Source: Micromonospora sp. CPCC 205371
GTDB taxonomy: Bacteria; Actinomycetota; Actinomycetes; Mycobacteriales; Micromonosporaceae
Length of the DNA stretch: 59,977 nucleotides
Assembly: GCF_026130045.1 (NCBI RefSeq)
Contig: NZ_JAIBNX010000010.1
Span: 19,120 to 79,096, forward strand
Direction of reading: 5' to 3'
This document shows positions 31,756 to 45,931 of this stretch, piece by piece; the first letter of the stretch is position 1, and the number at the start of each line of letters is the position of its first letter. The notes beneath the pieces were generated by a model that worked only from the letters and a program-made list of their open reading frames with translations, ran no database searches and had not been told where the DNA came from. Both the position numbers and the translations under genes were made by a program.

Positions 31756-32474
31756 CCGCGCACGTGACGCTGGTGGGCAGCGGCGCCGGCGGGTTCGACC
31801 TCACCGACCCGCTGGACTGCCACGTGTACCTCGTGCGAGGGACCAAGGCCAGCGCGCTCGTCGATGCCGGGGCGGGGCGGGGCGTCGATGCGATCCTCCA
31901 CAACGTCGGCGCGCCCGCGCCCGCGTACCTCTTGCTGACACATGGCCACGCCGACCACGCCGGAGGAGCCGCGCAGCTTGCCCGGCGGATACCCGGCCTG
32001 CGCGTGCTGGCCGGCGCGCCCGCCGCCGGCTGGATCGCGGCCGGCGACGAGGCGATGCTGAGCCTGCCGCGCGCCCGCGCCGGCGGCACCTACCCGGCCG
32101 ACTACGCGTTCGAGCCGTGTCCACAAGTGACGGTCGTCGATGACGGCGACGAGATCGACCTCGGTGGGGTGACGCTGCGTGCCCTCGCCACACCGGGCCA
32201 CGCCGACGGGCACACGTGCTACGTGCTCGACACCGCCGGCCACAGGGCCCTGTTCTCCGGCGACTGCGTCTTCACCGGTGGCAGAGTGTCACTACAGAAC
32301 CTGCACGACTGCCGGGTGCCCGAGTACGCGCGGAGCCTGTCCCGGCTGGCCGCACTGGAGGTGGACGCCCTGTTTCCCGGACACCACGAGATCTGCCTGT
32401 CCCGCGCCCAGCGCCACCTGACAGCCGCGCACGCGGTCTTCGAGGCCGGCCTGCTGCCGAGGAGCACCACATGA
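31746..32474 (+). CDS. metallo-beta-lactamase-fold hydrolase
   Basis: A 242-residue MBL-fold protein with the metal motif H66-G-H68-A-D70-H71, a downstream ATPGHADGHTCY histidine, FSGDCVF aspartate and FPGHHE histidine, so all binuclear zinc ligands are present. The small size and layout match glyoxalase II-like hydrolases of thioesters or related compounds. It overlaps the M20 gene by ten bases. The stop overlaps an ATG at 32471, which I interpret as the ancestral start position of the next gene. Confidence 0.88.
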   Translation: MRLTAHVTLVGSGAGGFDLTDPLDCHVYLVRGTKASALVDAGAGRGVDAILHNVGAPAPAYLLLTHGHADHAGGAAQLARRIPGLRVLAGAPAAGWIAAGDEAMLSLPRARAGGTYPADYAFEPCPQVTVVDDGDEIDLGGVTLRALATPGHADGHTCYVLDTAGHRALFSGDCVFTGGRVSLQNLHDCRVPEYARSLSRLAALEVDALFPGHHEICLSRAQRHLTAAHAVFEAGLLPRSTT

Positions 32475-32600
32475 CAGAGCCAACTGGCGCTCGCTCCGCT
32501 CGCGCGGGTCATGCGCCTTTGATGCCGCCCTGTAGCCGACCCTGCGCTCGGTCGCTACGCTCCCTCGACTCCGGGCCGGCTGCGGGCGGCGGCGCATGAC
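32471..32600. repeat. 125-bp insertion-like segment flanked by ATGAC
   Basis: The stop of the MBL gene and the start of the next gene each contain ATGAC, at 32471-32475 and 32596-32600. The 120 bp between them are rich in CTCGCTCCGCTCGCGC-like motifs (32490-32507) and GCTCGGTCGCTACGCTCC (32551-32568). A normal four-base coupled junction could have been split by a small element that duplicated a 5-bp target. A 42-residue frame from 32471 to 32599 lies inside it but resembles no protein. Mobility is inferred from the flanks only. Confidence 0.4.
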
Positions 32601-33801
32601 CGATTTGGTTGACTGGCGGGCGAAGGGTTTCTGGGCCCCGGAAGCGGTCACGGCGAACGAGTTCGTCGCCGCGAAGCACCACCTCTTCGACGGCGCCTTC
32701 ACCTGGCCGGTGATGGTGGCCAACGGCCCCGCCATCGCGCGCAACATCCACACCCTGGCCGAGTTCTGCGCCCGGCACGGGCTGGAGTTCGCCCCGCACG
32801 GCAAGACCACGATGGCGCCGTCGCTGTTCGCCGCCCAGCTGGAGGCCGGTGCGTCGGCCATCACCGTCGCGACGGCCAACCAGCTCCTCGCATGCCGCGC
32901 CTTCGGTGTCACGCGGGTGCTGCTCGCCAACGAACTGCTGGACCCGGTCGCCCTGCGCTGGATCGCCGCGGAGGAGGGATTCGAGGTCCTGCTGTACGTC
33001 GACTCGCTGGCCGGTGTCCAGGCGGCGGCCGAGGCGGTGACCACCACACCGCTGCGGGTGCTCGTCGAGCTGGGGTACCCGGGCGGGCGCACCGGCTGCC
33101 GCACGATCGCCGAGCTCGTCGACCTGGCGCGCGCGGTGGCGGCCGAGCCCCGGCTCGTCCTCGCGGGCGTCGCCGGGTACGAGGGCGGGCTGCCCGGCGC
33201 GCCCTCGGCCGGCTGGTACCTCGACGAGATGCGAACCGCCGTCCTGGATCTCGCGGCCGCGGGCCTGCTCCCGGAGGAGGTCGTCGTCACGGCGGGCGGC
33301 AGCAAGTACTTCGACGTCGTCGCCGACCGGCTCGCCGGCCAATGGGTGCCCGGCCACCGGGTGCGCGCCGTCCTGCGCAGCGGCGCGTACATCACGCACG
33401 ACGACGGCGTCTACCGCGAGACGACACCGTTCCGGCGGGCGCCCGGCGAGGGCATGCTCGACGCGGCGCTGGAGGTGTGGGCACAGGTCATCTCGACGCC
33501 CGAGGACGGGCTCGCGATCGTGGCCATGGGCAAGCGCGAGGTGCCCTACGACGAGGGCCTGCCCGTGCCTCGGGCGGTGCGCGGCCGCGACGGTGCGGTA
33601 CGCCCGGCCGGTGGGCTGCGGGTCACCGCGACCAACGACCACCACGCGTACCTGGAGGTCGCCCCCGATGCCCGGCTGGCACCGGGCGAGCTGGTCGCCT
33701 TCGGCATCTCGCACCCGTGCACCGCGTTCGACAAGTGGCGCCTGATCCCGGTCGTCGACGACGACTACACCGTGACCGACCTGATCCGCACCTACCACTG
33801 A
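32596..33801 (+). CDS. DSD1-family PLP enzyme (D-amino-acid dehydratase/deaminase-like)
   Basis: A 401-residue alanine-racemase-fold protein of the D-serine dehydratase-like/D-threonine aldolase family. The N-terminal barrel carries the PLP-binding lysine in FAPHGKTTMAPS. The C-terminal domain has NDHHAYLEV and ISHPCTAFDKW, the histidine and cysteine that bind zinc in eukaryotic-type D-serine dehydratase. The likely reaction is removal of ammonia from a D-amino acid, giving an unstable enamine that a RidA protein would clear. A RidA gene lies in the divergent operon. ATG 32596 is used. Confidence 0.88.
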   Translation: MTDLVDWRAKGFWAPEAVTANEFVAAKHHLFDGAFTWPVMVANGPAIARNIHTLAEFCARHGLEFAPHGKTTMAPSLFAAQLEAGASAITVATANQLLACRAFGVTRVLLANELLDPVALRWIAAEEGFEVLLYVDSLAGVQAAAEAVTTTPLRVLVELGYPGGRTGCRTIAELVDLARAVAAEPRLVLAGVAGYEGGLPGAPSAGWYLDEMRTAVLDLAAAGLLPEEVVVTAGGSKYFDVVADRLAGQWVPGHRVRAVLRSGAYITHDDGVYRETTPFRRAPGEGMLDAALEVWAQVISTPEDGLAIVAMGKREVPYDEGLPVPRAVRGRDGAVRPAGGLRVTATNDHHAYLEVAPDARLAPGELVAFGISHPCTAFDKWRLIPVVDDDYTVTDLIRTYH

Positions 33802-33820
33802 GCCGGCCTTCTGAGCCGGC
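33802..33820. terminator. GC-rich hairpin between convergent genes
   Basis: GCCGGC at 33802-33807 and 33815-33820 form a six-base stem with a seven-base loop, in the 21-bp gap between the convergent PLP-enzyme and response-regulator genes. There is no U-tract. It could act as a bidirectional terminator, as many actinomycete terminators lack U runs. Confidence 0.35.
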
Positions 33821-33822
33821 GG

Positions 33823-34473
33823 TCAGCCACGCAGGTACGCCAGCACCGCCCGGACGCGGCGGTGGTCGTCTTGGTCGGGCGGCAGGTCCAGCTTGGTCAG
33901 CAGGCTGCCGATGTGCTTCGCCACGGCCGCCTCGCTGACCACGAGCGCGCGGGCGATCGCGGCGTTCGACCGGCCCTCCGCCATCAGTGCGAGCACCTCC
34001 CGCTCGCGCGGGCTCAGCAGGGCCACGGGATCGCGCCGCCGGCGCAGCAGCTGCCGGACCACCTCCGGGTCGACGACGGTGTGCCCGCTGGCGACCCGGT
34101 CCAGCGCGTCGACGAACTCGACCACGTCGCCGATGCGGTCCTTCAGCAGGTATCCGACGCCGCCCGTGCCCGGCCGCGCCGACTCCAGCAGCTCCGCCGC
34201 GTACGTCTGCTCGACGTACTGGCTCAGGATGAGCACCGGCAGCTCGGGATCGGCGTGCCGGAGCCGGATCGCGGCCTGCAATCCCTCGTCCGTGAAGGAC
34301 GGCGGCATCCGCACGTCGGTGACGACGATGTCCGGCCGGTGCGCGCGGACGGCCGCCACGAGCGCGCCGGCGTCGCCGACCGCCGCGACCACCTCGTGCC
34401 CGAAGCGGGTGACCAGGCCGACGATGCCTTCCCGGATGAGCACGCCGTCTTCGGCGACGATCACTCGCGCCAT
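33823..34473 (-). CDS. NarL/LuxR-family response regulator
   Basis: A 216-residue response regulator. The receiver domain has acidic residues E8-D9, phosphoacceptor D53 in VVTDVRMPP and a conserved lysine in GYLLKDR. The C-terminal LuxR helix-turn-helix reads LLSPREREVLALMAEGRSNAAIARALVVSEAAVAKHIGSLLTKLDL. It overlaps its cognate kinase gene by 13 bases. Targets are unknown. The genes immediately upstream on the same strand are the kinase and the MauE gene. Confidence 0.93.
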   Translation of the reverse strand: MARVIVAEDGVLIREGIVGLVTRFGHEVVAAVGDAGALVAAVRAHRPDIVVTDVRMPPSFTDEGLQAAIRLRHADPELPVLILSQYVEQTYAAELLESARPGTGGVGYLLKDRIGDVVEFVDALDRVASGHTVVDPEVVRQLLRRRRDPVALLSPREREVLALMAEGRSNAAIARALVVSEAAVAKHIGSLLTKLDLPPDQDDHRRVRAVLAYLRG

Positions 34474-35708
34474 GCGTCCGGTACTCCGGTGAACTCGACC
34501 TGGAGCACCGTGGGCCCGCCGGGCGGGCTCGACAGCGCGACCGTGCCGTCGACGGCGGCCACCCGGTCGACCACGCCGGCGAGGCCGGTGCCCGCGTCCG
34601 GGTCGGCGCCGCCCGTGCCGTCGTCCTCCACCCGCATTCGCACGCGTCCCTCCACAATGGATGCTGTGACGGAGGCGCGGCTGGCGCCGCTGTGCTTGGC
34701 CACGTTGGCGAGCGCCTCGACCACGACGAAGTACGCGGTGACCTCGACCGGCCGGGGCAGGCGCCCGGGCAGGCTGATGTCGACGTCGACCGGTACCGGC
34801 GAGCGGCCCGCGACGTCCTCGACGGCCGCGACCAGGCCGCGGTCCGCGAGCACCTGCGGGTGTACGCCCCGGATCAGCTCGCGCAGCTCGGTCAGCGCCT
34901 GCTTGGCCAGCTCGTGTGCCTTGGCGAGCTGCTCGGCCGCCGGCGAGCCAGCCGGCAGCTCCAACCGGGCCAGGCCGAGGTGCATGTTCATGGCCACGAG
35001 CCGCTGCTGGGCGCCGTCGTGCAGGTCGCGCTCGATCCGGCGGCGCTCGATCTCGAACGCGTCGACCAGCCGTGCCCGCGATCGGGTCACCTCGACCAGC
35101 CGCTCGCCAAGGTCGGTCTCGCGCGGAGCCAGCAGTGCCCGGGCCAGCGCGGCGCGTGCGCCGGCCCAGGCGGTCACCGGATAGGGCGCGGCGAGCACGA
35201 GGACGATGCCGCACAGGGCCACCAGGTACCGCAGCGGCTCGTCCGGATCGAGGATCGGGTAGAACAGGAACGTCACGGGGTACCAGACCGCGAACACGAC
35301 CACCAATCCGTCCATCCAGCACAGGACGCCGCCCGAGACGATCGCGTGGCCGAACTCCCGCCAGGTCGCCTGCTCCCGCAGCCGCACCCGCAGGCGGTGC
35401 CGCCAGCCGGGCCGGTCGAGCGGCTCGTGGGGGTCGTCCACCGGGTACCCGTCGACGAGCCGCAGGCGCCGCCGCTCCAGCCGGGCGACCGGGACCGCAC
35501 AGGCGATGACCGGGGTGTAAGCGGCCACGCCGATGGCGAACTCCAGCAGCGTGAGCTCGCCGGCGAGCAGCTGCGACGCGGCGAGGATGCCGGTGCACCC
35601 CAGCAGGGCGCCGGTGGCCAGGTAGAGCACGGACCGCCACGGCCACGAGCTGCGCAGGAACCGCGTCGGCCGCAGCGTGAGCGCATCCAGCGCGGTGCGG
35701 ACCGGCAT
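34461..35708 (-). CDS. HisKA_3-type sensor histidine kinase
   Basis: A 415-residue membrane kinase with four to five hydrophobic segments in the first 185 residues. The dimerisation/phosphoacceptor helix has H230 in IERDLHDGAQQRL. The HATPase domain has VVEALANVAKHS, VEDDGTGGADPDAGTGLAGVVDRVAAVDG. The short loops leave little room for an extracellular sensor, so it may sense the membrane itself. ATG 35708 is chosen; a GTG at 35717 would add three residues, and neither has a clear ribosome binding site. Confidence 0.9.
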   Translation of the reverse strand: MPVRTALDALTLRPTRFLRSSWPWRSVLYLATGALLGCTGILAASQLLAGELTLLEFAIGVAAYTPVIACAVPVARLERRRLRLVDGYPVDDPHEPLDRPGWRHRLRVRLREQATWREFGHAIVSGGVLCWMDGLVVVFAVWYPVTFLFYPILDPDEPLRYLVALCGIVLVLAAPYPVTAWAGARAALARALLAPRETDLGERLVEVTRSRARLVDAFEIERRRIERDLHDGAQQRLVAMNMHLGLARLELPAGSPAAEQLAKAHELAKQALTELRELIRGVHPQVLADRGLVAAVEDVAGRSPVPVDVDISLPGRLPRPVEVTAYFVVVEALANVAKHSGASRASVTASIVEGRVRMRVEDDGTGGADPDAGTGLAGVVDRVAAVDGTVALSSPPGGPTVLQVEFTGVPDAWRE

Positions 35709-35754: not shown

Positions 35755-36330
35755 TTATACCTTCCGGATCGCGCCCGGCCCCGCGGGTGCGAAGAGCGCC
35801 ATCAGGTCGTCGAGGTACGCCACGGTGAACGCGGCCACCAGCCCCAGTGGCACCGCGACCGCGGCCGCCTGGCCGGTCATCGTGGTCCCGCTCCACGCCG
35901 CGTACCCGCCCGCAGTGGCCACGGCGATGAGCGCGGCGTTGCGCACGACGTGGTGGCGGCGGAACGGCGTCGGGGCGGTACCGCCGAAGCACCGGCACTC
36001 CGCGGCCGTGCCCCGCCGCAGGACCAGCGCCACCGCCACCGTGAACGCCGCCAGCAGCGCCCCGCCCAGCAGGAAGCCGGCGGCGGTGAACGGCGATCCC
36101 GGCACCGGCAGCAACAGCACCGGTACCGCCGCCTCGGCGGGCACCACGACGGCGGCGGCCGGGCGGACCCGCGCGCCCGGCAGCCGGGCCATGCCGCGCC
36201 ACGCTTCCTCCAACGCCCGGAACTCCCGGCCGCCGCGCACTTTGCCGGCGACCGAGAGCACGAACGTGAGACCGATCAGGCACTGGGCGAAGAGCAACAG
36301 GTACGGCACGGTCGGCACTCCGGTGATCAT
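35755..36330 (-). CDS. MauE-type redox-associated membrane protein
   Basis: A 191-residue polytopic membrane protein of the MauE/DoxX-like family with about four helices. The start YLLLFAQCLIGLTFVLSVAGK and the CxC motif C112-R-C114 followed by FGG are characteristic. MauE is required with the thioredoxin-like MauD to form disulfides in the methylamine dehydrogenase light chain, and related proteins act in other periplasmic oxidation systems. Here it neighbours a CxxC redoxin and a six-cysteine peptide, not methylamine dehydrogenase subunits. Its start is 19 bp from the divergent signal peptidase gene. Confidence 0.85.
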   Translation of the reverse strand: MITGVPTVPYLLLFAQCLIGLTFVLSVAGKVRGGREFRALEEAWRGMARLPGARVRPAAAVVVPAEAAVPVLLLPVPGSPFTAAGFLLGGALLAAFTVAVALVLRRGTAAECRCFGGTAPTPFRRHHVVRNAALIAVATAGGYAAWSGTTMTGQAAAVAVPLGLVAAFTVAYLDDLMALFAPAGPGAIRKV

Positions 36331-36349
36331 GTGTCGCTACGGTGGTGTC

Positions 36350-36862
36350 GTGGATGGACTGACGCTTCCGCTGGTCGTCGCTGGCGCCCTGGCGGTACTG
36401 GGCGCCGGCCTGCTCCTGGTGACCCGCGCGGTGCTGCAGGTCGTGGGCGTGCAGGGCGACAGCATGACGCCCACGTACCAGCACGGCGACCAGCTCCTGG
36501 TGCTGCGGCGCGGGTTCCGGCGGCGGCTGCGGGTCGGCGCCGTCGTCGTCTGCCTGCCGCCGCCCGGCGTGATCATCCCGGACGGCGAGAGGGTGGCCCG
36601 CAGCCAGCTGATCGTGAAGCGGGTGGCCGGCCTGCCGGACGGCATGCTCTACGTGCTCGGCGACGCGCCCCAGCACAGCATGGACTCGCGGATGTTCGGC
36701 CCGCTGACGCCCGACCTGGTGCGGGGCGTGGTCGTCCGGCGCCTGCGGTCCGAGCGGTCCGAGTCGTCACCGTCGGCCTCAGCCCGCCGCGACCGGATCG
36801 GCGGCGCGAACGGTGCCGATGGGACCGACCGGGCCGAGGGACCGCTGGGGCGGCACGGGTAG
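36350..36862 (+). CDS. S26-family signal peptidase
   Basis: A 170-residue membrane peptidase. A single N-terminal helix, LPLVVAGALAVLGAGLLLVTRAVL, precedes the catalytic serine S38 in VQGDSMTPTY. The general-base lysine is K90 in LIVKRVAGLPDG, and the box E-like GDAPQHSMDSRMFG follows. All catalytic residues are intact, but the protein is small, as in dedicated peptidases of peptide clusters. GTG 36350 is preferred; an ATG at 36329 is possible. The last 84 bases overlap the convergent redoxin gene. Confidence 0.85.
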   Translation: MDGLTLPLVVAGALAVLGAGLLLVTRAVLQVVGVQGDSMTPTYQHGDQLLVLRRGFRRRLRVGAVVVCLPPPGVIIPDGERVARSQLIVKRVAGLPDGMLYVLGDAPQHSMDSRMFGPLTPDLVRGVVVRRLRSERSESSPSASARRDRIGGANGADGTDRAEGPLGRHG

Positions 36863-37402
36863 GTCCGCGATGCCGTTGCTGGCCGCGGCCACCTTGCCGT
36901 CCGGGTCGACCAGGTAGAACGCGGGAAACGCGGCCACCTGGAAGGTCGTCTGGAGCGTACCGTCGAGCGGCTCGTGCACGATCAGCGCCGCGCTGCCGGC
37001 CACGCCGAGCGACTCGGCCAGCTCGGCGGCGGACTTGTCGTTCGGGTCGGTCGCGGCGCGCAGGCGGGTGAACACCACGAGCACGGCCGCGGGGCCACCG
37101 ACCGCCGTGGCGAGGCGTTCACGTACCGCCGGGAGCTGCTCGGTGCACGCGGCGCAGTCCGGTGCCATGAAGACGACCAGAGCGCCGTCACCGCGTAGCG
37201 TGGCGGTCGACACGACGACGCCCCGCTCGCTGGTGGCGCTGAACTCCGGCACGGTGGCACCGACGGGGATCGTCCGGGTCGGCGCGTTGGCGGCGAGCTG
37301 CTCGGAGTGTTCGCGCAGCCTGCGGATGACGCCGAAGGTGAGCAGCAGATTCAGCAGGACGAGCGCGGTGAGGACGACGATGGCGGCGACAATGGTGGGC
37401 AT
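36779..37402 (-). CDS. membrane-anchored thioredoxin-like protein (TlpA/MauD type)
   Basis: A 207-residue protein with one N-terminal transmembrane helix, IVAAIVVLTALVLLNLLLTFGVI, and an extracytoplasmic thioredoxin fold. VPEFSATSERG is the redoxin-like entry, the active site is C83-A-A-C86 in FMAPDCAACTEQ, and a cis-proline-like AAFPAFYLVDPDG follows. Such proteins oxidise or isomerise disulfides outside the membrane, often with a MauE partner. The gene lies 87 bp downstream of the six-cysteine peptide gene on the same strand and is probably co-transcribed with it. Confidence 0.88.
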   Translation of the reverse strand: MPTIVAAIVVLTALVLLNLLLTFGVIRRLREHSEQLAANAPTRTIPVGATVPEFSATSERGVVVSTATLRGDGALVVFMAPDCAACTEQLPAVRERLATAVGGPAAVLVVFTRLRAATDPNDKSAAELAESLGVAGSAALIVHEPLDGTLQTTFQVAAFPAFYLVDPDGKVAAASNGIADLPVPPQRSLGPVGPIGTVRAADPVAAG

Positions 37403-37489
37403 TGGGCTTCACTCCTGAGTGGACGGTCGAACAACGGTGGGTCGCGGCCGGGCGCGAGGTCCGGCCGCGGCGGGGTCACCGGCTGGGGC

Positions 37490-37678
37490 TCAGCACCAAT
37501 CGCCCCACCACCCAGCGCAGCTCGGGCCCCCACCGGTGCGCCACTTGAACTTCGTGGTGGTGTACCGGCAGCACATGGGCACCTGGCCGCAGCCGGGGTT
37601 GCAGACGGCGGACGCGGTGGTCTTGGGCAGCACCATCGCGAGGAGCCGGTCGGCGAGCGCGCCGACGTGTCTGGTCAT
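37490..37678 (-). CDS. 62-residue six-cysteine peptide precursor (candidate secreted disulfide-rich peptide)
   Basis: A 62-residue open frame begins at ATG 37678 with a strong GGAGGG (37684-37689) six bases upstream. Residues 1-24 form a leader, MTRHVGALADRLLAMVLP then KTTASA, whose A-S-A fits type I signal-peptidase cleavage. The remaining 38 residues contain exactly six cysteines at 26, 30, 36, 37, 54 and 62, four tryptophans at 46, 57, 58 and 61, and end in GWWGDWC. Six cysteines suit three disulfides. Downstream genes encode a CxxC redoxin and MauE, with an S26 peptidase and an ABC exporter near by. I recognise no family. It is not a methylamine dehydrogenase light chain, which is longer with more cysteines. 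Confidence 0.7.
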   Translation of the reverse strand: MTRHVGALADRLLAMVLPKTTASAVCNPGCGQVPMCCRYTTTKFKWRTGGGPSCAGWWGDWC

Positions 37679-37726
37679 AAACGTCCCTCCAATCATGATC
37701 AATGTCCTGCTGGATGGAACGTATGC

Positions 37727-37747
37727 ACCTCCGGTACACGTGGAGGT
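37727..37747. promoter_or_regulatory. inverted repeat upstream of the six-cysteine peptide gene
   Basis: ACCTCC at 37727-37732 and GGAGGT at 37742-37747 form a six-base inverted repeat with a nine-base loop. It lies about 50 bp upstream of the peptide start, in the 175-bp divergent spacer shared with the BTAD regulator gene. It is a candidate binding site for that regulator; position is the only evidence. Confidence 0.35.
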
Positions 37748-37825
37748 ACAGCGTCGATACATCGCCGTGACCCGGAGGGCCCTTGCCGACCGCCGGGCAC
37801 GTGTCTAATGTGACCCGACGGGGGG

Positions 37826-37840
37826 CCTTGATCTTCAAGG
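37826..37840. promoter_or_regulatory. perfect palindrome just upstream of the BTAD regulator start
   Basis: CCTTGA-TCT-TCAAGG is a perfect 6-3-6 inverted repeat. Its 3' half overlaps the AAGGGA that serves as ribosome binding site for the TTG start at 37854. A bound protein or an RNA hairpin here would block translation or transcription, so autoregulation is possible. Confidence 0.4.
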
Positions 37841-37853
37841 GATTGAGGCACAT

Positions 37854-39680
37854 TTGGTACTCCAGTTTCAGGTGCTCGGCCCGGTGCGATTCGGCGCGAC
37901 CGGGCACGACGATCAACGGGGCGCGGTGGGCCCGCGCAAACCGCGGGCGATGCTCGCCACGCTGCTGCTATCCGCCAACGAGCGGGTCTCGCTCGACCGG
38001 CTCGTCGGCGAGTTGTGGGACTGCCCGCCCCGTTCGGCGGTCGCCAACATCCGCACGTACGCCAGCGGCCTGCGCCGCGTGCTCGGCGAGGTGGACGCCG
38101 GCGACAGGCTGGTCGCGAGCCCATCCGGGTACCTGCTGCGGGTCGAGCCGCACGAGCTGGACCTGCAGCGGTTCCACGCCGCCACCGAGGCTGGCCGGTC
38201 CGCGCTTGTCCGCGACGACTACGCGGCGGCGGCGTCCCGGTTTCGCGAGGCGCTGGACCTGTGGCGCGGCGCGCCGGTGGAAGACGTCGACCCCGGCCCC
38301 GACCTCGCCACCCGGATCGCCCTGCTGGAAGAGCAGCACCTCGCGGTCATCGAAGACCTCATGGAGGCGCGGCTCGCGACGGGCGAGCACGCCGCGGTGA
38401 CCGCCGAGCTGCGGCTACTGGTGACGGCCCACCCGTTCCGGGAACGCCTGCACCACCAGCTCATGCTCGCGCTGTACCGGTCGGGTGACGCGCCCGCGGC
38501 CCTCTCCGCGTACGCGCGGGCACGCGCGGTGCTCGCCGAGCAGCTCGGCATCGAGCCGGGCGCCCAGCTGGTCGCCCTGCACCAGGCGATCCTGCGGCGC
38601 GCTCCGGAGCTGTCGCCGCCGGGCGCCCCCGACCCGCCGGCGGTCGCGGGCGCGCCCGCACGGGCTGCCCAGCCGCCGCCGCAGCTTCCGTCCCGCCCGG
38701 CGGGGTTCGTGGGCCGGGCGCGGGAGCTGGCGGTGCTCCGGGAGGCCTGCGCCGCTACGGACCGGCCGCCGGTCGTGGTCGTGCACGGCCCCAGCGGCAT
38801 CGGCAAGACGGCGCTGGTCATCCGCGCCGGGCACCTGCTGGCCAGCCGGTACCCGGACGGGCAGCTCTACCTCGACCTGCGTGGCGACGGTGCCGGCGCG
38901 CCGGGCGTCGATCCCGCCCACGCGCTCGGCCGGCTGCTGCGCGGGCTGGGCTCGCCACCCGGCGGCGTGCCCGGCGACCTGGCCGAGGCGGCCGCGACGT
39001 TCCGGTCCCAGACGGCGGCGCTGCGGCTGCTCATCGTCTTGGACGGGGCGGCCGGCGTCGACCAGGTACGCCCGCTGCTGCCGGCCGGGCCGGGCTGCGC
39101 GGTACTCGTCACCAGCAACCGCCCGATGTGCGCCCTCGACGCCACCCGGCTGCGCCTGGAGCGGCTCGGCGTCGCGGAGGGTGCGCGCCTGCTCGGCCTG
39201 GTCGCGGGCGAGGAGCGGGTGGCGGCCGACCCGCCGACGGTGGCGCGGCTGGTCGCGCTGTGCGACGGCAACCCGCTCGCGCTGCGGATCGCCGGTGCCC
39301 GGCTGGCCGCCCGCGGCGACTGGACCCTCGCGGACCTGGCTGGCCGGCTCGCCGACGAGCGCGGCCGCCTCGACGAGCTGCGCGCCGACGACCTCGCGCT
39401 GCGCTCCAGCTTCCGGGCGAGCTACGGCGAGCTCGCCGGCAGCGCCGACCCCGACGACCGGGCCGCCGCGACCGCGCTGCGGACTGTCGCGGTGCTACGG
39501 GTACCGGAGTTCCCCGGCGTCCTGGCGGCAGCCATGATCGGCACGTCGGAGCGGCGCGCGGTGGCCCTCCTCGACCGCCTGACCGAGGCGAACCTGCTGG
39601 AGGCGGTGACCCCGACGACGTTTCACGTGCCGGACCTGCTGCGGCTGTTCCTCACCGAGCTGGCTCAGACCGGGGCGTAG
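37854..39680 (+). CDS. AfsR/SARP-like BTAD regulator with NB-ARC ATPase domain
   Basis: A 608-residue regulator. Residues 1-100 form an OmpR-type winged helix (LQFQVLGPVRF, RKPRAMLATLLLSANERVSLDRLVGELW). Residues 100-245 form the bacterial transcriptional activation domain (LDLQRFHAATEAG, EQLGIEPGAQLVALHQAIL). An NB-ARC domain follows with Walker A GPSGIGKT at 312-319. It lacks the C-terminal TPR region of full AfsR. The TTG start is unusual but is the only codon that gives the conserved opening. It diverges from the peptide gene and converges with the ABC exporter (16-bp overlap), so it is the likely pathway activator. Confidence 0.9.
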   Translation: MVLQFQVLGPVRFGATGHDDQRGAVGPRKPRAMLATLLLSANERVSLDRLVGELWDCPPRSAVANIRTYASGLRRVLGEVDAGDRLVASPSGYLLRVEPHELDLQRFHAATEAGRSALVRDDYAAAASRFREALDLWRGAPVEDVDPGPDLATRIALLEEQHLAVIEDLMEARLATGEHAAVTAELRLLVTAHPFRERLHHQLMLALYRSGDAPAALSAYARARAVLAEQLGIEPGAQLVALHQAILRRAPELSPPGAPDPPAVAGAPARAAQPPPQLPSRPAGFVGRARELAVLREACAATDRPPVVVVHGPSGIGKTALVIRAGHLLASRYPDGQLYLDLRGDGAGAPGVDPAHALGRLLRGLGSPPGGVPGDLAEAAATFRSQTAALRLLIVLDGAAGVDQVRPLLPAGPGCAVLVTSNRPMCALDATRLRLERLGVAEGARLLGLVAGEERVAADPPTVARLVALCDGNPLALRIAGARLAARGDWTLADLAGRLADERGRLDELRADDLALRSSFRASYGELAGSADPDDRAAATALRTVAVLRVPEFPGVLAAAMIGTSERRAVALLDRLTEANLLEAVTPTTFHVPDLLRLFLTELAQTGA

Positions 39681-41479
39681 CCCTCGGCCTGGGCCTCGAA
39701 GAGAGCCGCGTAGGGGCCCTGCCGCGCCATCAACGCCTCGTGGGTGCCCTGCTCGGCCACCTCGCCCGCCGACAGGGTCACGATCAGGTCGGCGCCGCGA
39801 AGCGTGCCCAGGCGGTGCGAGATCAGCAGGCTGGTGCGGCCGGCCCGGTACTCCCGCAGCCGCACGTGGATGTCGCGCTCCGCCTCGGCGTCCAGGCCCG
39901 CGCTCGGCTCGTCGAGGATCAGCAGGTCGCGCACCGACGGCAGGATGGCCCGCGCGATCGCCACCCGCTGCCACTGCCCGCCCGACAGCAGCACACCCGG
40001 GTCGTCGGAGTCGTCGTCCAGTTCGAGCACGCGAGACAGCATCGTGCCGTACCCGCGCGGCAGCCCCGCGAGCACGCCGTCGACGCCGGCGCGGCGGGCC
40101 GCGTCCCGTATCCGCCCGAGGTCGCCTTCCGGTACCCGGTCGGGGCCGTCCGGGGGCACGTCGCCGAGCCAGATGTTCTCCGCGGCGGTCATCTCGTACG
40201 TCATGTAATCCTGGAACACCGCGCCGATGCGGGTCCGCAGTTCGGCCACCGGAAACTCGCGCAGGTCGACGCCGTCCCACAGGATCGCGCCCCGGGTCGG
40301 GTCGTAGAACCGGCACAGCAGCTTCACGAGCGTGCTCTTACCGGCGCCGTTGTGCCCGACCAGCGCCACCGACCGTCCACTGGGGATGGACAGGTTCACG
40401 CCGCGTAGCACCCACGGATGCTCCGGCCCGTACCGGAACCACACGTCGCGCAGCTCGATGCCGCGCCGCAGCGGGGGCACCGGCCGCGGCTCGCGGGGCG
40501 CCGGCAGGTCGGGCGCGACCATGACGACGCCCTCGTAGTGCCCGAGCATCAGCATCGCGTTGTGCAGCCCCGCGATGTGCCCGATCACGGCGGTCAGGCC
40601 GCCCTGTACACCCGCCACCGCCGCGACGAAGACCGCGACGTCGCCGACGGACAGCGCACCCGACCGCGCCGCGCCGACCGCCCAGACCAGCCCGGCGCCG
40701 GCGGTCGCGGCGCCGAGCACCGCGAGCACGCCCTGCGTGCGCACCTCCCGGCGGTCGTGTACGCGCCGCGCGCCGTGCGCGGCCCTCAGCTCGCCGAGCA
40801 TCCGGCTGCGGAAGAGCCCGCCGAGCCGCAGCAGGCGCAGCTCCTTGGCGGCCGGCAGGCTGGTCAGCAGGCCGGCGTAGAACATCTCGCGGCGCCAGCC
40901 GGGCGTGATGTCCCACAGCAGCTTGGCCCGCTGCCGGCTCAGTCGGATCTCGGCCACCAGCGCCGGGATCGCGCTGAGCGCGACCAGCCCGGTCATGGTG
41001 GGGCTGAGCACGGCTAGCGCGCCCAGGAAGCCGGCGAGCTGCACGGAGCCCTGCACCAGGCCGAGCACCCCGTCGACGCTGCGCGCGGGCGCGTCCCGGC
41101 CGGCCTGTTCGGCGAGGCGCAGCGTGTTCTGGAACTCGGCCTCCTCCAGGCGGCGCAGCCCGGTCAGCCGGTCGGTCGCCCGGTACAGCTCGCCGAGCGC
41201 CACCATCGCCGCCGACCGGCCCACCTGCGCCCGCACGTACTCGTTGAGGTGCGGCACCACGGCGGTGCCGACCGCCGCCGCGGCGAGGGCGGCCACCGGG
41301 CCCGCGATCGCCCCGGCCGACGGGTCGACGATCCGGTCGAGGACCAGCTTCGTAAGCCACGCGACCAGCACCGGGAGCGTGCCGGCGACCGGCGCGAGCG
41401 CCACGAAAACGATCAAGTTCACGCGCCCGGCCCGCCACACCACCGCGACCGCACGGGCGACGCGCGCGATGCCCGTCAT
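39665..41479 (-). CDS. ABC exporter with fused membrane and ATPase domains
   Basis: A 604-residue exporter half-transporter. The N-terminal membrane domain of about six helices spans residues 1-320. The ATPase domain has Walker A GHNGAGKST at 375-383, signature LLSGGQWQR, Walker B LLILDEPSAGLD and H-loop ISHRLGT. It lacks the N-terminal C39 peptidase domain of bacteriocin exporters, so leader removal would need a separate enzyme such as the nearby S26 peptidase. An acidic insertion, LELDDDSDDPG, precedes the signature. ATG 41479 is chosen; a longer start at 41536 lacks support. Confidence 0.9.
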   Translation of the reverse strand: MTGIARVARAVAVVWRAGRVNLIVFVALAPVAGTLPVLVAWLTKLVLDRIVDPSAGAIAGPVAALAAAAVGTAVVPHLNEYVRAQVGRSAAMVALGELYRATDRLTGLRRLEEAEFQNTLRLAEQAGRDAPARSVDGVLGLVQGSVQLAGFLGALAVLSPTMTGLVALSAIPALVAEIRLSRQRAKLLWDITPGWRREMFYAGLLTSLPAAKELRLLRLGGLFRSRMLGELRAAHGARRVHDRREVRTQGVLAVLGAATAGAGLVWAVGAARSGALSVGDVAVFVAAVAGVQGGLTAVIGHIAGLHNAMLMLGHYEGVVMVAPDLPAPREPRPVPPLRRGIELRDVWFRYGPEHPWVLRGVNLSIPSGRSVALVGHNGAGKSTLVKLLCRFYDPTRGAILWDGVDLREFPVAELRTRIGAVFQDYMTYEMTAAENIWLGDVPPDGPDRVPEGDLGRIRDAARRAGVDGVLAGLPRGYGTMLSRVLELDDDSDDPGVLLSGGQWQRVAIARAILPSVRDLLILDEPSAGLDAEAERDIHVRLREYRAGRTSLLISHRLGTLRGADLIVTLSAGEVAEQGTHEALMARQGPYAALFEAQAEGYAPV

Positions 41480-41609
41480 GGTCGCGAAGCTAGGAAGCCG
41501 CCATCCAGCGTGAGCTACAGCCCGGATACATTCCACCCGCCGAATGCGGCGGCGTGCTCACACACCGCGGCGGCCCGCTCCCGCGCTCCCGCGCGCTCCC
41601 CGCGCCGTC

Positions 41610-41685
41610 GATCAAGGGCGAATGCACGTGGTTGGATCTCTTTTCCGCGTGCGTTTGCCCTTGATCGATGGATTTGCCCTTGATC
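41610..41685 (+). repeat. 76-bp palindromic element, copy A
   Basis: Two 22-base arms, 41610-41631 and 41645-41666, pair with only a few transitions around a 13-base loop TTGGATCTCTTTT. Both outer ends are GATCAAGGGC or its complement. A third half-site, TTTGCCCTTGATC, follows at 41673-41685. Copies B and C have the same length and layout. Confidence 0.85.
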
Positions 41686-41775
41686 GGCGCGGGCCTGCGG
41701 TGCTCGCGGCCGTCGCCGGCGGCCTTGGGCGTTTGTTATCGGGCGATTTTTGCCGTGCGGGAAGGTGTTACGCCG

Positions 41776-42624
41776 ATGCATACTCCGGCGATGGACGAGC
41801 CTCGGGCGCGCGCCCTCGCCCACGTCGCTGCGCTGGCCACCGGCGACGGTGCCGACCCGGCGTGGCGAGTGACCCTGCACTTCCACCCCGACCGGCTGGC
41901 GGCGGGCGAGCCGATCCTACGGATGATGGCGCGCGACGGCGTGTACCGGTCGCAGTTCGAGACCGGCACCAGCAACGGCGGGATGACCGCGCACGAGGGC
42001 GGCGACCGGTGGCGGTGGGAGAGCCGGATGTTCAGCGGTGCCTACGACGGCGGGCCGGCGTCCGACCGTCCCAGGTACGGGTCGCTGAACTTCCGGCGGC
42101 GTACCGTCGGCGGCTCGCCGCGGTTTGGGTCCTCGCATCTGCGGCTGACCGCCGACACCCTCGACCGGACGACGTTCTGTTACCCCGACAGCGTGTTCGA
42201 ACCGGTGCACTTCGGGGTGGTGGCGAAGTTGTCGACGCTGGTGGAGCTCGCTGTGAAAGACGATCAGGAGCCACTCGACGACTACATCGAGGCACACGTG
42301 CACGGGCCGGTCGAACTGGCTCGTGACGTGGAGGCGCTGGTGCTCGACCCGTGCTACCGCGGCACGGGGGTCGAGGCGGAGGCGCGTACGCTCGGCTGTC
42401 CGATCGAGTGGCACGGTGGCTTCCGGCTGCACGTGGACGAGTTGCGCAGGCATCCCGAGTACCGCGGCCCGGAGTTCGTCGAGCTGGGCGCGGAGCTGGC
42501 CCGGGACGGCTGGCTCGACGCGGCGATCATCGGCGACGCGTCGCGCACGGGCCGCTACGACCAGCAGGCCCTCAAGCGCGTCTGGCACTACGTGGCCCGC
42601 TTCGGCCACCCCGACCTGTCCTAA
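41776..42624 (+). CDS. DUF3626 family protein
   Basis: A 282-residue protein of the DUF3626 family. It has VTLHFHPDRLAAGEPILRMMARDGVYRSQFETGTSNGG near the start and FCYPDSVFEPVHFG, DDYIEAHVHGPVEL and CPIEWHGGFRLHVDEL later. Conserved H, D and E residues suggest a metal-dependent hydrolase or toxin-related fold, but no activity is established. ATG 41776 is preceded by GAAGGTG at eight bases. The gene stands alone, flanked on both sides by 76-bp palindromic elements (copies A and B). Confidence 0.82.
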   Translation: MHTPAMDEPRARALAHVAALATGDGADPAWRVTLHFHPDRLAAGEPILRMMARDGVYRSQFETGTSNGGMTAHEGGDRWRWESRMFSGAYDGGPASDRPRYGSLNFRRRTVGGSPRFGSSHLRLTADTLDRTTFCYPDSVFEPVHFGVVAKLSTLVELAVKDDQEPLDDYIEAHVHGPVELARDVEALVLDPCYRGTGVEAEARTLGCPIEWHGGFRLHVDELRRHPEYRGPEFVELGAELARDGWLDAAIIGDASRTGRYDQQALKRVWHYVARFGHPDLS

Positions 42625-42664
42625 CCCTCCCTCCGCCCTCTCGCCCGCCAGCCCTCTTGCCGCC

Positions 42665-42740
42665 GATCAAGGGCAAACGCACGTGGTTCGATCTCAAAAC
42701 CACGTGCATTCGACCTTGATCGATGGGGATGGCCTTGATC
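42665..42740 (+). repeat. 76-bp palindromic element, copy B
   Basis: Arms lie at 42665-42686 and 42700-42721 with loop TTCGATCTCAAAA, and a third half-site ends GGCCTTGATC at 42740. The orientation is the same as copy A. It begins 41 bp after the DUF3626 stop and could double as its terminator. Confidence 0.85.
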
Positions 42741-43078
42741 GGTAGGCGCGGGGCGGGGTGCGCCCCAAGCGCCCGGACTGTGCCGACCTGCCTCGAAAGA
42801 TCTTGAGATCTGGGCTACCGCGGCCTCCGTCGCGGTCAGTCCGTCACTCCCGCGGCCTCGCCCTGCGCAGTCCACAAGCGACCTCCGGGCGTGCGGCGCG
42901 GTGCCGGAGGTGGGGTGCGCGGCATCCGGTGATCACGTGGATGCTGGACGCGCGTTCCCGCGCACATGGCGGCGCGCGCTGCGTGTCAGGTGCGCGGTCC
43001 GCGCGCGTTTCGTTGTCCGCGCGGCGTTGCGCTGCGGGGGTGCGCGCGTCGTGGGTTTGGCGGCGAGCGCGCCTCGCC
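42741..43078. other. 338-bp stretch without a convincing gene
   Basis: The stretch between repeat copies B and C contains only short frames with skewed Arg/Ala/Cys-rich composition and no ribosome binding site that fits. Several CGCG-rich stretches occur from about 42950 to 43075. I see no RNA gene or recognisable coding signal. Confidence 0.6.
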
Positions 43079-43154
43079 GATCAAGGGAGATCGCATGGAT
43101 CAAGGGCGAATGCACGCGGAAAAGAGATCGAACCACGTGCGTTTGCCCTTGATC
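43079..43154 (-). repeat. 76-bp palindromic element, copy C (inverted)
   Basis: The same element as copies A and B, in reverse orientation. The half-site GATCAAGGG begins at 43079, and the paired arms are 43098-43119 and 43133-43154 around loop AAAAGAGATCGAA. The final GATC (43151-43154) is shared with the first unit of the 67-bp tandem duplication. Confidence 0.85.
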
Positions 43155-43284
43155 GACGCGGGCCGCGCGGCGCGGCCGCCCACGGGCCGCGTAGACGCGC
43201 GGAGCGCGTTTACGACTGATCGACGCGGGCCGCGCGGCGCGGCCGCCTACGGGCCGCGTAGACGCGCGGAGCGCGTTTACGACT
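43151..43284. repeat. 67-bp tandem duplication
   Basis: Two 67-bp units, 43151-43217 and 43218-43284, differ at one base (CCCAC versus CCTAC). Each starts with GATCGACGCGGGCC and ends GCGTTTACGACT. A further GATC follows at 43285-43288, so each junction carries GATC. The array ends 18 bp before the MocR gene stop. Confidence 0.9.
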
Positions 43285-43302
43285 GATCGGCGGGTCGGGG
43301 GC

Positions 43303-44766
43303 TCACCGGCCGGCGACGCCGAGCGTGGCTATGGCGGCCTCGATGTCGGCCGGGGCGGTGGCGGCGTAGCCGAGGACCAGGCCGGGCGGGCCGGGGCGCT
43401 GGTAGTGCCACGACAGGGGCTGCACCTTGACGCCGTGCGCGAGCGCGGCGGCGGCGAGCGCGACGTCGTCCACCGCGCCCGGCAGGGTGATCATCAGGTG
43501 GAGGCCGGCGGCGGCGCCGTGCACGACGGCGCCCGGCAGGTGGGCCGCGATCGCGCTGATCATCGCGTCGCGGCGCCGGACGTGGCGGCGCCGCAGCAGG
43601 CGCAGGTGGCGCTCCAGCGTGCCGGACGACATCAGCTCGGCGAGCACGAGCTGCGGCAGCGCGGCGTTGCCGAGGTCGGCGTTGCGCTTGGCGGCGACCA
43701 GCGCCTCCCGGTACCGCGGCGGCGCCAGCATCCAGCCGGTCCGCAGGGCGGGCGCCAGCAGCTTGGAGACGCTGCCGGTGTAGCAGACGTGGTCGGGCAG
43801 CATCGCGCGCAGCGCGGGCACCGGCGGCCGGTCGTACCGGTGCTCGGCGTCGTAGTCGTCCTCGACGATCAGGCCGCCGCCCTCGGCCCACGCGGCGAGC
43901 TGCCGGCGGCGGTCGCCGTCGAGCACCACACCGGTCGGGAACTGGTGTGCGGGCGTGAGCAGCACAGCCGGCACCCCGCTGGCGCGCAGCTCGTCGACGC
44001 GCAGCCCGCGATCGTCCACAGTGATCGGTGGGGCGTCGACCAGCCAGTTGTTCAGGTGCTGCCGTACCCCGAGCGAGCCCGGGTCCTCGACCGCCACGCT
44101 CGTGATTCCCTCGGCGCGCAGCACCTGCGCGAGCAGGCTGAGCGCCTGCGACACCCCCGCCACGACGATCACCTCGTCCGGGTCGACGAGGATGCCGCGA
44201 TTGCGGGCCAGCCAGCCGGCCACGGCCGCGCGCAGGGCTGGCGTCCCACGAGGGTCGCCGTAGCCGAAATCCGAAGGCGCCAGGGCATCGAGCACGGCAC
44301 GCTCCGCGCGCAGCCACGCGGTCCGCGGAAACGCCGCGAGATCCGGTACTCCCGGCGAAAGGTCGATCCGCGCGGGCGCCGCACGCAGCGTGTCGAAGGC
44401 GTCGACGCCGGGTGGCACGGCGAACGGCGCGGTCTTCGCGGGCGCCTCGGTGGTCGCCGGCCGGGGCGCCGGAGCCGAGACCACCACCGTGCCGCCCCGC
44501 CCGCGTCCGGCGAGGTGCCCGGCCTCGCCCAGCCGCTGGTACGCCTCGGTGACCACGCCCCGCGACACGCCCAACTCGCCCGCGAGCACCCGCGTGGCCG
44601 GCAGCCGGCTCCCGACCGGCAGCCGGCCGTCGGCGGTCGCGAGCCGCAGGCGCGCGGCCAGGCACTGGGCCCGAGCGCCGGCCGGCGGGGGGGCGGTGTC
44701 GGGGTGGAGAAAGTCCGAGCCGGCCGTTATGGACTGAGCGCTGGTGGTCTTCTCGGCGCTGTTCAC
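43303..44766 (-). CDS. MocR/PdxR-type regulator (GntR HTH fused to aminotransferase domain)
   Basis: A 487-residue regulator. The N-terminal GntR winged helix reads LPVGSRLPATRVLAGELGVSRGVVTEAYQRL. The C-terminal fold-type I aminotransferase domain has the PLP lysine in TGSVSKLLAPALRTGWM, plus VEDDYDAEHRYDRPP. These proteins sense PLP or amino-acid adducts and control vitamin B6 or amino-acid genes. GTG 44766 is the likely start, with a weak ribosome binding site. It is divergent from the hydrolase gene, with a direct-repeat candidate operator between them. Confidence 0.88.
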   Translation of the reverse strand: MNSAEKTTSAQSITAGSDFLHPDTAPPPAGARAQCLAARLRLATADGRLPVGSRLPATRVLAGELGVSRGVVTEAYQRLGEAGHLAGRGRGGTVVVSAPAPRPATTEAPAKTAPFAVPPGVDAFDTLRAAPARIDLSPGVPDLAAFPRTAWLRAERAVLDALAPSDFGYGDPRGTPALRAAVAGWLARNRGILVDPDEVIVVAGVSQALSLLAQVLRAEGITSVAVEDPGSLGVRQHLNNWLVDAPPITVDDRGLRVDELRASGVPAVLLTPAHQFPTGVVLDGDRRRQLAAWAEGGGLIVEDDYDAEHRYDRPPVPALRAMLPDHVCYTGSVSKLLAPALRTGWMLAPPRYREALVAAKRNADLGNAALPQLVLAELMSSGTLERHLRLLRRRHVRRRDAMISAIAAHLPGAVVHGAAAGLHLMITLPGAVDDVALAAAALAHGVKVQPLSWHYQRPGPPGLVLGYAATAPADIEAAIATLGVAGR

Positions 44767-44894
44767 AGGACCATTTTGCCTGGCGTGCGGGGTGCGCACG
44801 CTGCCGATATCGACGATCGGCCACGCCGCGATGTCCGCCGGTGCCTGGCGACGATCGTTCTTGAACCGTAGGCTGATACTTTGAGGCCGGGTAG

Positions 44895-44928
44895 GTTCTG
44901 GGTGGTATCCAGGTGTTCTGGGTGGTAT
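44895..44928. promoter_or_regulatory. 14-bp direct repeat, candidate MocR operator
   Basis: GTTCTGGGTGGTAT occurs at 44895-44908 and again at 44915-44928, identical and 20 bp apart. MocR-family dimers are known to bind direct repeats. The pair lies in the spacer between the divergent regulator and hydrolase genes, about 50 bp upstream of the hydrolase start. Confidence 0.5.
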
Positions 44929-44980
44929 GAGCGGTTTGCCGTTTGCCCGGAGCGTAGTCGTCATCTGGCAGGAGGCGAGC

Positions 44981-45931
44981 GTGGTCGGGGAGCAGGCAGC
45001 CCAAAAGGAGGTCACGGCCCCCGACGGGCATCGCCTGGCCGTCGAGGACACCGGCGCACCCGACGGCCTGCCGGTCTTCCTCATGCACGGCACGCCCGGC
45101 AGCCGCAGCGGCATCAAGCCCCGCAGCATCGTCCTGTACCGGCTCGGCGTGCGTCTGATCTGTTACGACCGTCCGGGATACGGGCACTCCGACCGCCGCG
45201 AGGGGCGGCGCGTCGTCGACGCGGCCGAAGACGTCCGGATCATCGCTGACGCGCTCGGCGTCGACCGGTTCGCCGTCGTTGGGCGGTCCGGTGGCGGCCC
45301 GCACGCGCTCGCGGTGGCGGCCATGCTGCCCGACCGGGTCACCCGGGCGGCCGTGCTGGTCAGCCTGGCGCCGGCCGACGCGCCCGGCCTCGACTGGTAC
45401 CGGGGCATGGGCGAGTCCAATATGGACGAGTACCAGGCGGCCGACGCCAACCGTGGCGCCCTGATGGCCAACCTGACGAGCCAGGCCGACCGGCTGCGCC
45501 GCGACCCTGAGAGCCTGATCGCCTTCCTGGAAAAGGAGCTCGCCGACCCAGACCGTCGCGTCGTCGAAAACGTGGCTATGCGGCGGCAGCTCGCCGACAG
45601 CTACGCCGAGGCGGTGCGCTTCGGCGCCGACGGGTGGATCGACGACGCCCTGGCGTTCCGGCAGAACTGGGGGTTCGACCCGGCCTCGATCCAGGTGCCC
45701 GTGCGGCTCTGGCACGGCAGCGCCGACCAGTTCTCACCGGTCGAGCACACCCGTTGGCTGGCCGCGCGCATCCCCGGCGCGCAGGTCGAGGTGCAGCACG
45801 GCGAGGGCCACTTCGCGGCGGTCGAGATCCTGCCGCAGATGCTGACCTGGCTGACCGCGGCCGGAGCCGAGGTCAGACTGGGTGCGGATCTAGTACCCGG
45901 TAGACCATTTGCCCTTCGCGCAGCTCTGTGA
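44981..45931 (+). CDS. alpha/beta hydrolase
   Basis: A 316-residue alpha/beta-hydrolase. HGTPGSRSG is the oxyanion-hole motif. The nucleophile elbow is GRSGGGPHA with serine, followed by the acid WHGSADQFSP aspartate and the base GEGHFAAVE histidine, so the triad is complete. GTG 44981 is selected because AGGAGG lies five bases upstream; a longer start at 44927 lacks such a site. The 3' end overlaps the convergent TPR protein gene by 59 bases. Its substrate is not predictable. The divergent MocR-type regulator is the likely controller. Confidence 0.88.
   Translation: MVGEQAAQKEVTAPDGHRLAVEDTGAPDGLPVFLMHGTPGSRSGIKPRSIVLYRLGVRLICYDRPGYGHSDRREGRRVVDAAEDVRIIADALGVDRFAVVGRSGGGPHALAVAAMLPDRVTRAAVLVSLAPADAPGLDWYRGMGESNMDEYQAADANRGALMANLTSQADRLRRDPESLIAFLEKELADPDRRVVENVAMRRQLADSYAEAVRFGADGWIDDALAFRQNWGFDPASIQVPVRLWHGSADQFSPVEHTRWLAARIPGAQVEVQHGEGHFAAVEILPQMLTWLTAAGAEVRLGADLVPGRPFALRAAL

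Follow-up and report, generated by a model that had tools for sequence, protein, structure and literature searches.

What does the gene block at positions 35755-41479 of a 59,977-nucleotide stretch of Micromonospora sp. CPCC 205371 (contig NZ_JAIBNX010000010.1; the whole stretch is hereafter the window) make, and in what order and on which side of the membrane would its products act? The block consists of six genes, encoding a 62-residue cysteine-rich peptide (the precursor), a membrane-anchored redoxin, a MauE protein, a small S26 peptidase, a BTAD regulator, and an ATP-binding cassette (ABC) exporter, and an earlier reading of the DNA letters (the original prediction) had proposed that the peptide is oxidized, cleaved, and exported by its neighbors. 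From sequence comparisons across actinomycete genomes, the locus is interpreted here, with a probability of roughly 0.8, as a representative of a cassette that is widespread among actinomycetes and would make a disulfide-rich peptide.

The precursor gene

The precursor gene (37490..37678, minus strand) encodes a 24-residue leader with a terminal ASA (37607-37678, minus strand; MTRHVGALADRLLAMVLPKTTASA) and a 38-residue core (37493-37606, minus strand; VCNPGCGQVPMCCRYTTTKFKWRTGGGPSCAGWWGDWC), with six cysteines at precursor positions 26, 30, 36, 37, 54, and 62 and four tryptophans at 46, 57, 58, and 61. It is preceded by the ribosome-binding site GGAGGG (37685..37690, minus strand), where GATTGGAGG is retained in eight of nine orthologues (the exception is locus L043). 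The frame, its leader and core, and the GGAGGG read as the original prediction had given them. Frames of 40–90 residues with a sequence resembling a ribosome-binding site and at least six cysteines in the last 40 residues number only two in 60 kb, the precursor being one, and pN/pS, the ratio of nonsynonymous to synonymous polymorphism, is 0.44 among the nine orthologues (leader, 0.24; core, 0.56), which together argue against a chance frame; judged by these values, the 62-residue frame is a genuine gene under purifying selection. No Pfam, NCBIfam, or PADLOC model matches the peptide, a PDB sequence search with a 32-row precursor profile returned no matches at E-values up to 1, and an AlphaFold2 model built from five sequences was unusable (mean predicted local distance difference test, 50.7; predicted template modeling score, 0.27).

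Upstream of the precursor gene are three TGTA repeats spaced by 11 and 12 bases (37735..37761, minus strand), present in register in eight of nine orthologous intergenic regions, with the first repeat reading TATA in L043. SARP regulators bind repeats approximately 11 bases apart, and the TGTA repeats are proposed to be the binding site of the divergently transcribed BTAD/NB-ARC (AfsR/SARP-like) regulator (37854..39680, plus strand; BTAD, 145.2 bits).

Close relatives of the window locus

A search with the window peptide of 354 genomes from the same family, taken to be Micromonosporaceae, returned strong matches in eight other genomes (E-values 1.6e-25 to 1e-21), including Plantactinospora mayteni, Virgisporangium aurantiacum, and two Micromonospora, along with many further weak matches, some real and some due to chance. 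The precursor orthologues share 65–74% identity and have the same neighbors, with the redoxin, S26 peptidase, BTAD regulator, and ABC exporter in the same arrangement in all eight relatives and a MauE match in six (L039 and L043 gave none). Of the window genes on either side of the block, those tested (31746-35646 and 41544-49814) are not consistently matched in the eight relatives, and for this reason the block is regarded as the conserved unit. Matches in the relatives to the frame at 45873-49814 lie in the BTAD regulators, as its NB-ARC part would lead one to expect, and the response-regulator matches are generic. The original prediction had staked itself on a cysteine-rich frame being conserved in homologous clusters, and such a frame is kept in the eight relatives.

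The number of cysteines is not fixed, and the six of the window copy are no general rule: the cores of all eight close relatives have eight cysteines, and the wider family spans 4–12. The window core lacks the fifth and seventh cysteines of its relatives, and the loss of exactly these two suggests that they pair with each other. By this comparison the window copy is derived: three disulfides are predicted for it, against four for the relatives. The regulator differs as well, ending at 608 residues in the window and running approximately 390 residues further in seven of the eight relatives (998 residues in L036), with a C-terminal part that, as in AfsR, is presumably TPR-like. A suspected extra gene between the regulator and the exporter in the relatives proved to be this C-terminal part in seven of eight cases (L039 had a different best frame). 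In the window, the regulator and exporter genes overlap in their last 16 bases, as though a deletion had brought them together.

A conserved leader with variable cores

Beyond the close relatives, precursor matches were present in 44 of 397 genomes from the order (profile of 21 precursors), and in 24 of 394 genomes from the class and 2 of 396 from a phylum draw (profile of 32 precursors), with the window's genome counted in each; only about 15 candidates were scored per genome, such that these prevalences are lower bounds. Four of six genomes from the genus of the window possess a precursor (its own included), and the same four possess the redoxin. After matches below 25 bits were dropped from 100 collected precursors, 91 distinct sequences were retained for counting cysteines.

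These 91 precursors share a leader of about 24 residues, in which an acidic residue (D/E) followed by R/K/Q occurs in 89 and the register P-x3-[AV]-x-A in 85, while the cores are variable (28–75 residues; median, 39) and, in 89 of 91, place a cysteine within the final three residues. Median identities were 0.42 for the leader, 0.38 for the core, and 0.26 for the core without cysteines, calculated with a crude leader boundary that was later replaced. Core cysteine counts were 4 (1 precursor), 6 (32), 7 (4), 8 (36), 10 (16), and 12 (2). The number is even in 87 of 91 cores, and in 46 of 49 groups defined below 50% core identity (binomial p = 3.5e-11), as disulfides predict. The family is thus gene-encoded with a conserved leader and a variable core which, by sequence, would place it among the ribosomally synthesized and post-translationally modified peptides (RiPPs), and the linked genes for modification, peptidase, and export described below point to the same class.

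Several genomes carry more than one precursor. The window's genome has a second, divergent precursor with eight cysteines (contig 301, 3333-3521; L176) beside a redoxin, MauE, ABC exporter, and, where the contig ends, part of an S26 gene. A plasmid of Streptomyces clavuligerus encodes two six-cysteine precursors, annotated merely as hypothetical proteins. In genome G345 (L227 and L228), a single contig has 13 scattered precursor matches, the weakest of which is doubtful, and one redoxin-MauE-ABC-S26 locus, for which no precursor was found in the surrounding 14 kb; a single set of maturation genes may here act on many precursors encoded far away.

Conserved partner genes

The partner genes in the window retain the residues expected of active enzymes. 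The MauE membrane protein (35755..36330, minus strand) matches Pfam MauE (PF07291; 75.4 bits against a cut-off of 27) and has the motif C-R-C-F-G (C112/C114) in a K/R-rich loop, and the MauD/TlpA-like redoxin (36779..37402, minus strand; AhpC-TSA, 36 bits) has a CAAC motif (C83/C86) and the residues RRLR directly behind its membrane anchor; it falls short of the MauD equivalog TIGR02661 (27.5 bits against a cut-off of 188.6). Both are on the strand of the precursor, as the original prediction had stated. The S26 peptidase (36350..36862; Peptidase_S26, 57.5 bits) possesses one N-terminal hydrophobic helix and the predicted intact Ser38/Lys90 (numbered from the GTG at 36350); the original prediction was silent on its strand, which is plus, with the gene running away from mauE and toward the redoxin gene. 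Given the start codons assigned here, only 19 bases (36331-36349) separate the back-to-back starts of mauE and the S26 gene, and their start signals must therefore overlap. Among NCBIfam models, the S26 peptidase scores highest against the nickel superoxide dismutase (SOD) maturation protease TIGR02754 (56.1 bits, under the cut-off of 63.25) and second-best against signal peptidase I, TIGR02227 (49.3 bits, over the cut-off of 47). The ABC exporter, a permease-ATPase (39665..41479, minus strand; ABC_tran, 100.6 bits), has no C39-type peptidase domain listed by Pfam at E-values up to 1, and the pairing of a BTAD/NB-ARC activator with an exporter free of its own leader peptidase was thereby recovered as originally described.

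The association of these partners with the precursor was assessed at 61 loci chosen by precursor score alone, using partner models built from 18 earlier loci. The set comprises 40 of 83 places from the order search (the 44 best, without two that were already known and two that were second copies within a locus), 20 of the 55 places from the class search, and the additional copy from the window's genome. The redoxin was found in 58, MauE in 55, the S26 peptidase in 57, and the ABC exporter in 57 of the loci, with all four in 52. None of the four exceeded its threshold in 20 arbitrary 16-kb control stretches from 20 of the same genomes, set at round-number positions rather than drawn at random; in control L178 an ABC gene was in two pieces (142 and 179 bits, below the threshold of 300). 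A BTAD regulator was present in 40 of the 61 loci versus 1 of the 20 controls. Co-occurrence was also seen at the level of whole genomes, where, taking the precursor and redoxin order draws as the same 397 genomes, both were present in 41, the precursor only in 3, the redoxin only in 13, and neither in 340 (Fisher p = 1e-40). Of the three genomes with a precursor only, two (G151 and G152) encode a diverged redoxin next to it and the third (G409) has nothing.

The genes often follow the order precursor, MauE, redoxin, ABC exporter, S26 peptidase on one strand, and other orders occur. Five plasmid loci were read, out of 25 plasmid records with a redoxin match, and all five possess the precursor, redoxin, ABC exporter, and S26 peptidase, with MauE in four. 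Across the family, the redoxin CxxC is present in 81 of 81 sequences and a proline at the likely cis-Pro position in 80 of 81, the MauE CxCFG in 66 of 66 aligned sequences (the cluster-type MauE of L325, outside of that set, has CRCLG), and the S26 serine and lysine each in 78 of 78.

Other neighbors were compared by all-against-all clustering of candidate frames (at least 70 residues, with a codon-bias filter). A shared accessory enzyme was considered and rejected: the sole frequent group near the cassette (50 loci) was represented by an antisense frame and is taken, by its position, as the regulator. Each of the remaining groups occurred in at most 12 loci and was judged by eye; no LanB/C/M, radical SAM, YcaO, or similar gene was recognized by eye among the groups in at least six loci. 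Loci L119, L126, and L152 have a second redoxin-MauE-ABC set (on the other strand in L119 and L126 and on the same strand in L152), beside which L119 and L126 have weak precursor-like frames; this set is perhaps a sister system. In the window, a protein with response-regulator and GerE/LuxR domains (33823-35646, minus strand) adjoins mauE on the same strand, and a 1313-residue frame with AAA_31/ParA-like, NB-ARC, and TPR matches (45873-49814, minus strand) lies near the cassette; neither accompanies the cassette in the eight relatives.

Predicted orientation and order of maturation

The side of the membrane on which the precursor would be processed was predicted using the positive-inside rule, for matches of at least 100 bits (at least 90 bits for the S26 peptidase) with the N-terminus covered. 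In 73 redoxins the net charge before the anchor has a median of 0 and the RRLR-like residues after it a median of +2, with the side after the anchor more positive in 68 and the side before it in 1. The CxC loop of MauE is on the K/R-rich side in 59 of 60 (median, 13 K/R versus 1), and in 71 S26 peptidases with chosen start codons the side after the helix is more positive in 54, the side before it in 7, and the two are equal in 10 (22, 3, and 4, respectively, for the 29 with confident starts). The window redoxin and MauE follow the family pattern, and for S. clavuligerus the deposited starts give the redoxin and the S26 peptidase an uncharged N-terminus with RR behind the helix, the inward pattern. 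The opposite was found among controls from the same genomes: ordinary anchored redoxins were positive before the helix in 8 of 8 (from 30 loci, 10 with the motif and 8 of those anchored), housekeeping signal peptidases (LepB) in 6 of 6 (from 22 loci), and housekeeping-type CGCFG MauE had the CxC on the K/R-poorer side in 6 of 7, with 1 equal. Four-helix MauE of this CGCFG type (L309-L315; three helices were counted in L313) occur in seven of eight searched genomes, with a predicted orientation opposite that of the cassette MauE. From the charge patterns of the redoxin, MauE, and S26 peptidase, the reverse of those in ordinary relatives, a cytoplasmic position is predicted for all three maturation sites (the redoxin domain, the CxC loop of MauE, and the S26 domain), and trimming and oxidation may precede export.

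A mechanism consistent with these patterns would begin with the BTAD regulator activating the divergent precursor promoter. The conserved leader would deliver the variable core to the membrane-bound machinery, where the redoxin would oxidize pairs of core cysteines and pass the electrons to MauE (CxC) and from there, probably, to the quinone pool. The S26 peptidase would cleave behind P-x3-[AV]-x-A, and the ABC exporter, with no recognized peptidase of its own, would export the peptide. The sequence of oxidation, cleavage, and export in the original prediction is compatible with the data, to which the charge patterns add a predicted cytoplasmic side. That oxidation and S26 cleavage take place at the cytoplasmic face before export is held at slightly better than even odds. 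The complete membrane-tethered line, with an inward redoxin, a reversed MauE draining electrons, an inward S26 peptidase using the nickel SOD register, and export of the finished product, is offered more tentatively, at a little under even odds.

The strongest competing account retains the cassette and moves the chemistry outside: the ABC exporter would export the whole precursor, followed by oxidation by the redoxin and MauE and cleavage by the S26 peptidase on the extracytoplasmic side. Dsb proteins and signal peptidases usually act outside, and the housekeeping signal peptidases and ordinary redoxins of these same genomes are predicted to do so. A-x-A is a signal-peptidase motif, and the window S26 peptidase passes the signal peptidase I cut-off. 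The staphylococcal disulfide bacteriocin TMcin, with a DsbA-family oxidase and an ABC exporter, matures at the membrane (PMC13252029). This account is possible but somewhat doubtful, as the reversed charge in all three cassette proteins stands against it.

For the favored reading as a whole, a cassette for a disulfide-rich peptide that would probably be oxidized and trimmed at the cytoplasmic face, several observations count on the other side. The positive-inside rule is a predictor only, and the helices were located from a crude hydropathy measure. An initial S26 count, in which flanks were fixed and start codons not selected, was undecided (34 after and 27 before, of 71), which also favors the extracytoplasmic account, and the charge count of the window S26 peptidase is neutral. 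Four further MauE from outside of the clusters have the CxC on the K/R-richer side, and the ABC permease control (36 of 59) has little power. Among the 61 loci, 9 are without at least one partner and 21 without a BTAD match, and in the 13 redoxin-only genomes, with one redoxin locus read in each, 10 have no clear precursor (clear in G542, G607, and G622; weak in G412 and in G491, where it looks spurious; none in eight). Redoxins of such a fold can also reduce or isomerize disulfides. Lastly, no immunity gene was recognized, with the neighbors not annotated one by one.

Role of the peptide and alternative functions

The cassette most likely produces a secreted antagonist or signal. A role specifically as a signal or developmental factor and not an antimicrobial, a question of function rather than of chemistry, would accord with the 13 precursor matches in G345 and with the lack of a recognized immunity gene, but a conserved leader followed by a variable core is seen more typically in antagonists, and such a role is judged unlikely.

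A different chemistry, in which the cysteine-rich product binds metal (as a hook derived from nickel SOD or in a metallothionein-like manner) and the redox pair readies thiols for loading, is quite improbable. The leader register and the type of S26 peptidase do resemble those of nickel SOD, and the window-type cores begin x-C-x3-C, comparable to the HCDLPC of SodN, but cysteines at both positions 2 and 6 occur in only 11 of 91 cores, none begins with histidine, the even number of cysteines fits disulfides, and no metal-uptake gene was recognized among the neighbor groups in at least six loci (judged by eye, with no domain search). The alternative offered by the original prediction, a relic of tryptophan tryptophylquinone-type amine dehydrogenase assembly, is scarcely credible, for even with a MauE, a MauD-like redoxin, and four tryptophans in the window core, there is no dehydrogenase subunit among the six genes, 29 of 91 cores are entirely without tryptophan, and the precursors vary and are found together with an exporter and a peptidase.

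Should the maturation enzymes face the cytoplasm, actinomycetes would possess a dedicated intracellular route to disulfides in which one kind of leader serves many variable cores (91 collected), and it would be a testable exception to the formation of secreted bacterial disulfides outside of the cell. By its leader and partners, the cassette defines a large, apparently uncharacterized class of disulfide-type peptides in actinomycetes, with hosts such as S. clavuligerus. A conserved leader with variable cores also amounts to a naturally occurring library of stable mini-proteins and might serve to introduce disulfides into chosen cores.

Comparison with known systems

No characterized member of the family was found in the literature, the coverage of which was mostly without subscription papers, and the closest known systems each share part of the cassette. 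Double-glycine bacteriocins are exported by C39 exporters, and here no C39 domain was listed and 85 of 91 leaders carry the P-x3-[AV]-x-A register instead. Actifensins, defensin-like bacteriocins of Actinomyces, are alike in a 37-residue core with six cysteines, a mass 6 Da low, a leader, and ABC transporter genes; the accessible text describes a cluster with a LuxR-type regulator, a subtilisin-like protease, a hydrolase, and several ABC genes, names no redoxin, MauE, or S26 peptidase, and gives a leader and GA cleavage motif that differ from those of the present family (PMC6989792). No subtilisin-like protease is among the cassette genes, and the only adjoining GerE/LuxR regulator is the one at 33823-35646 that is not conserved with the cassette. 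TMcin is likewise a disulfide-bonded peptide with its own thiol oxidase and ABC exporter, and, as far as the available portion of its description goes, differs in a transmembrane precursor, a DsbA-family oxidase, and an S2P-type metalloprotease, with no MauE or S26 peptidase (PMC13252029).

The maturation of nickel SOD (SodN/SodX; TIGR02753 and TIGR02754) resembles that of the cassette in the P-x3-[AV]-x-A register of the leader and in a small S26 peptidase. In 15 SodN leaders from the window's genome and relatives, several of them near-identical, a proline is at position -7 in 14 and the [AV]-x-A end is present in all 15, and the SodN leader MLFNRLLSAITPSTTASA resembles the precursor leader DRLLxxxxPKTTASA. 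SodN differs in being an enzyme with a conserved body, and the cluster S26 peptidase differs in its hydrophobic anchor: of 12 neighboring SodX stretches, 5, all from the window's genus, have a methionine directly before the serine motif, leaving no room for an anchor, and in the others the start is unclear. A tree of 37 cluster, 12 SodX, and 13 LepB S26 sequences resolved three separate clades (support of 0.77 for the cluster clade) with the sister group unsettled, and a shared origin of the cleavage step with nickel SOD is plausible on these sequence grounds. The other half of the machinery, the pairing of a redoxin with MauE, is that of methylamine dehydrogenase maturation (MauD and MauE), here with no dehydrogenase subunit; in that system MauE has been speculated to aid disulfide formation in the beta-subunit, as related in PMC7794033.

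The nearest precedent is decRiPPter (2020), which, in the accessible text, lists 42 candidate RiPP families for Streptomyces, of which three have mauE and one of these also mauD, each with precursors of at least eight cysteines, and proposes a role in precursor modification; its filter also requires a transporter, a peptidase, and a regulator (PMC7794033). The absence of a named family, claimed by the original prediction, therefore holds for Pfam, NCBIfam, and PADLOC and nearly so for the literature, in which candidate MauE families had already appeared, and the idea that MauE takes part in the maturation of cysteine-rich RiPPs is to be credited to that work (PMC7794033). Many members of the present family have MauE beside a precursor of at least eight cysteines, the window precursor having six, and the two are likely identical. 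The decRiPPter families are listed as uncharacterized candidates, with no leader motif, cysteine parity, topology, or link to nickel SOD in the part of the account available (PMC7794033), and the new, testable point of the present analysis is the order and sidedness of the maturation steps.

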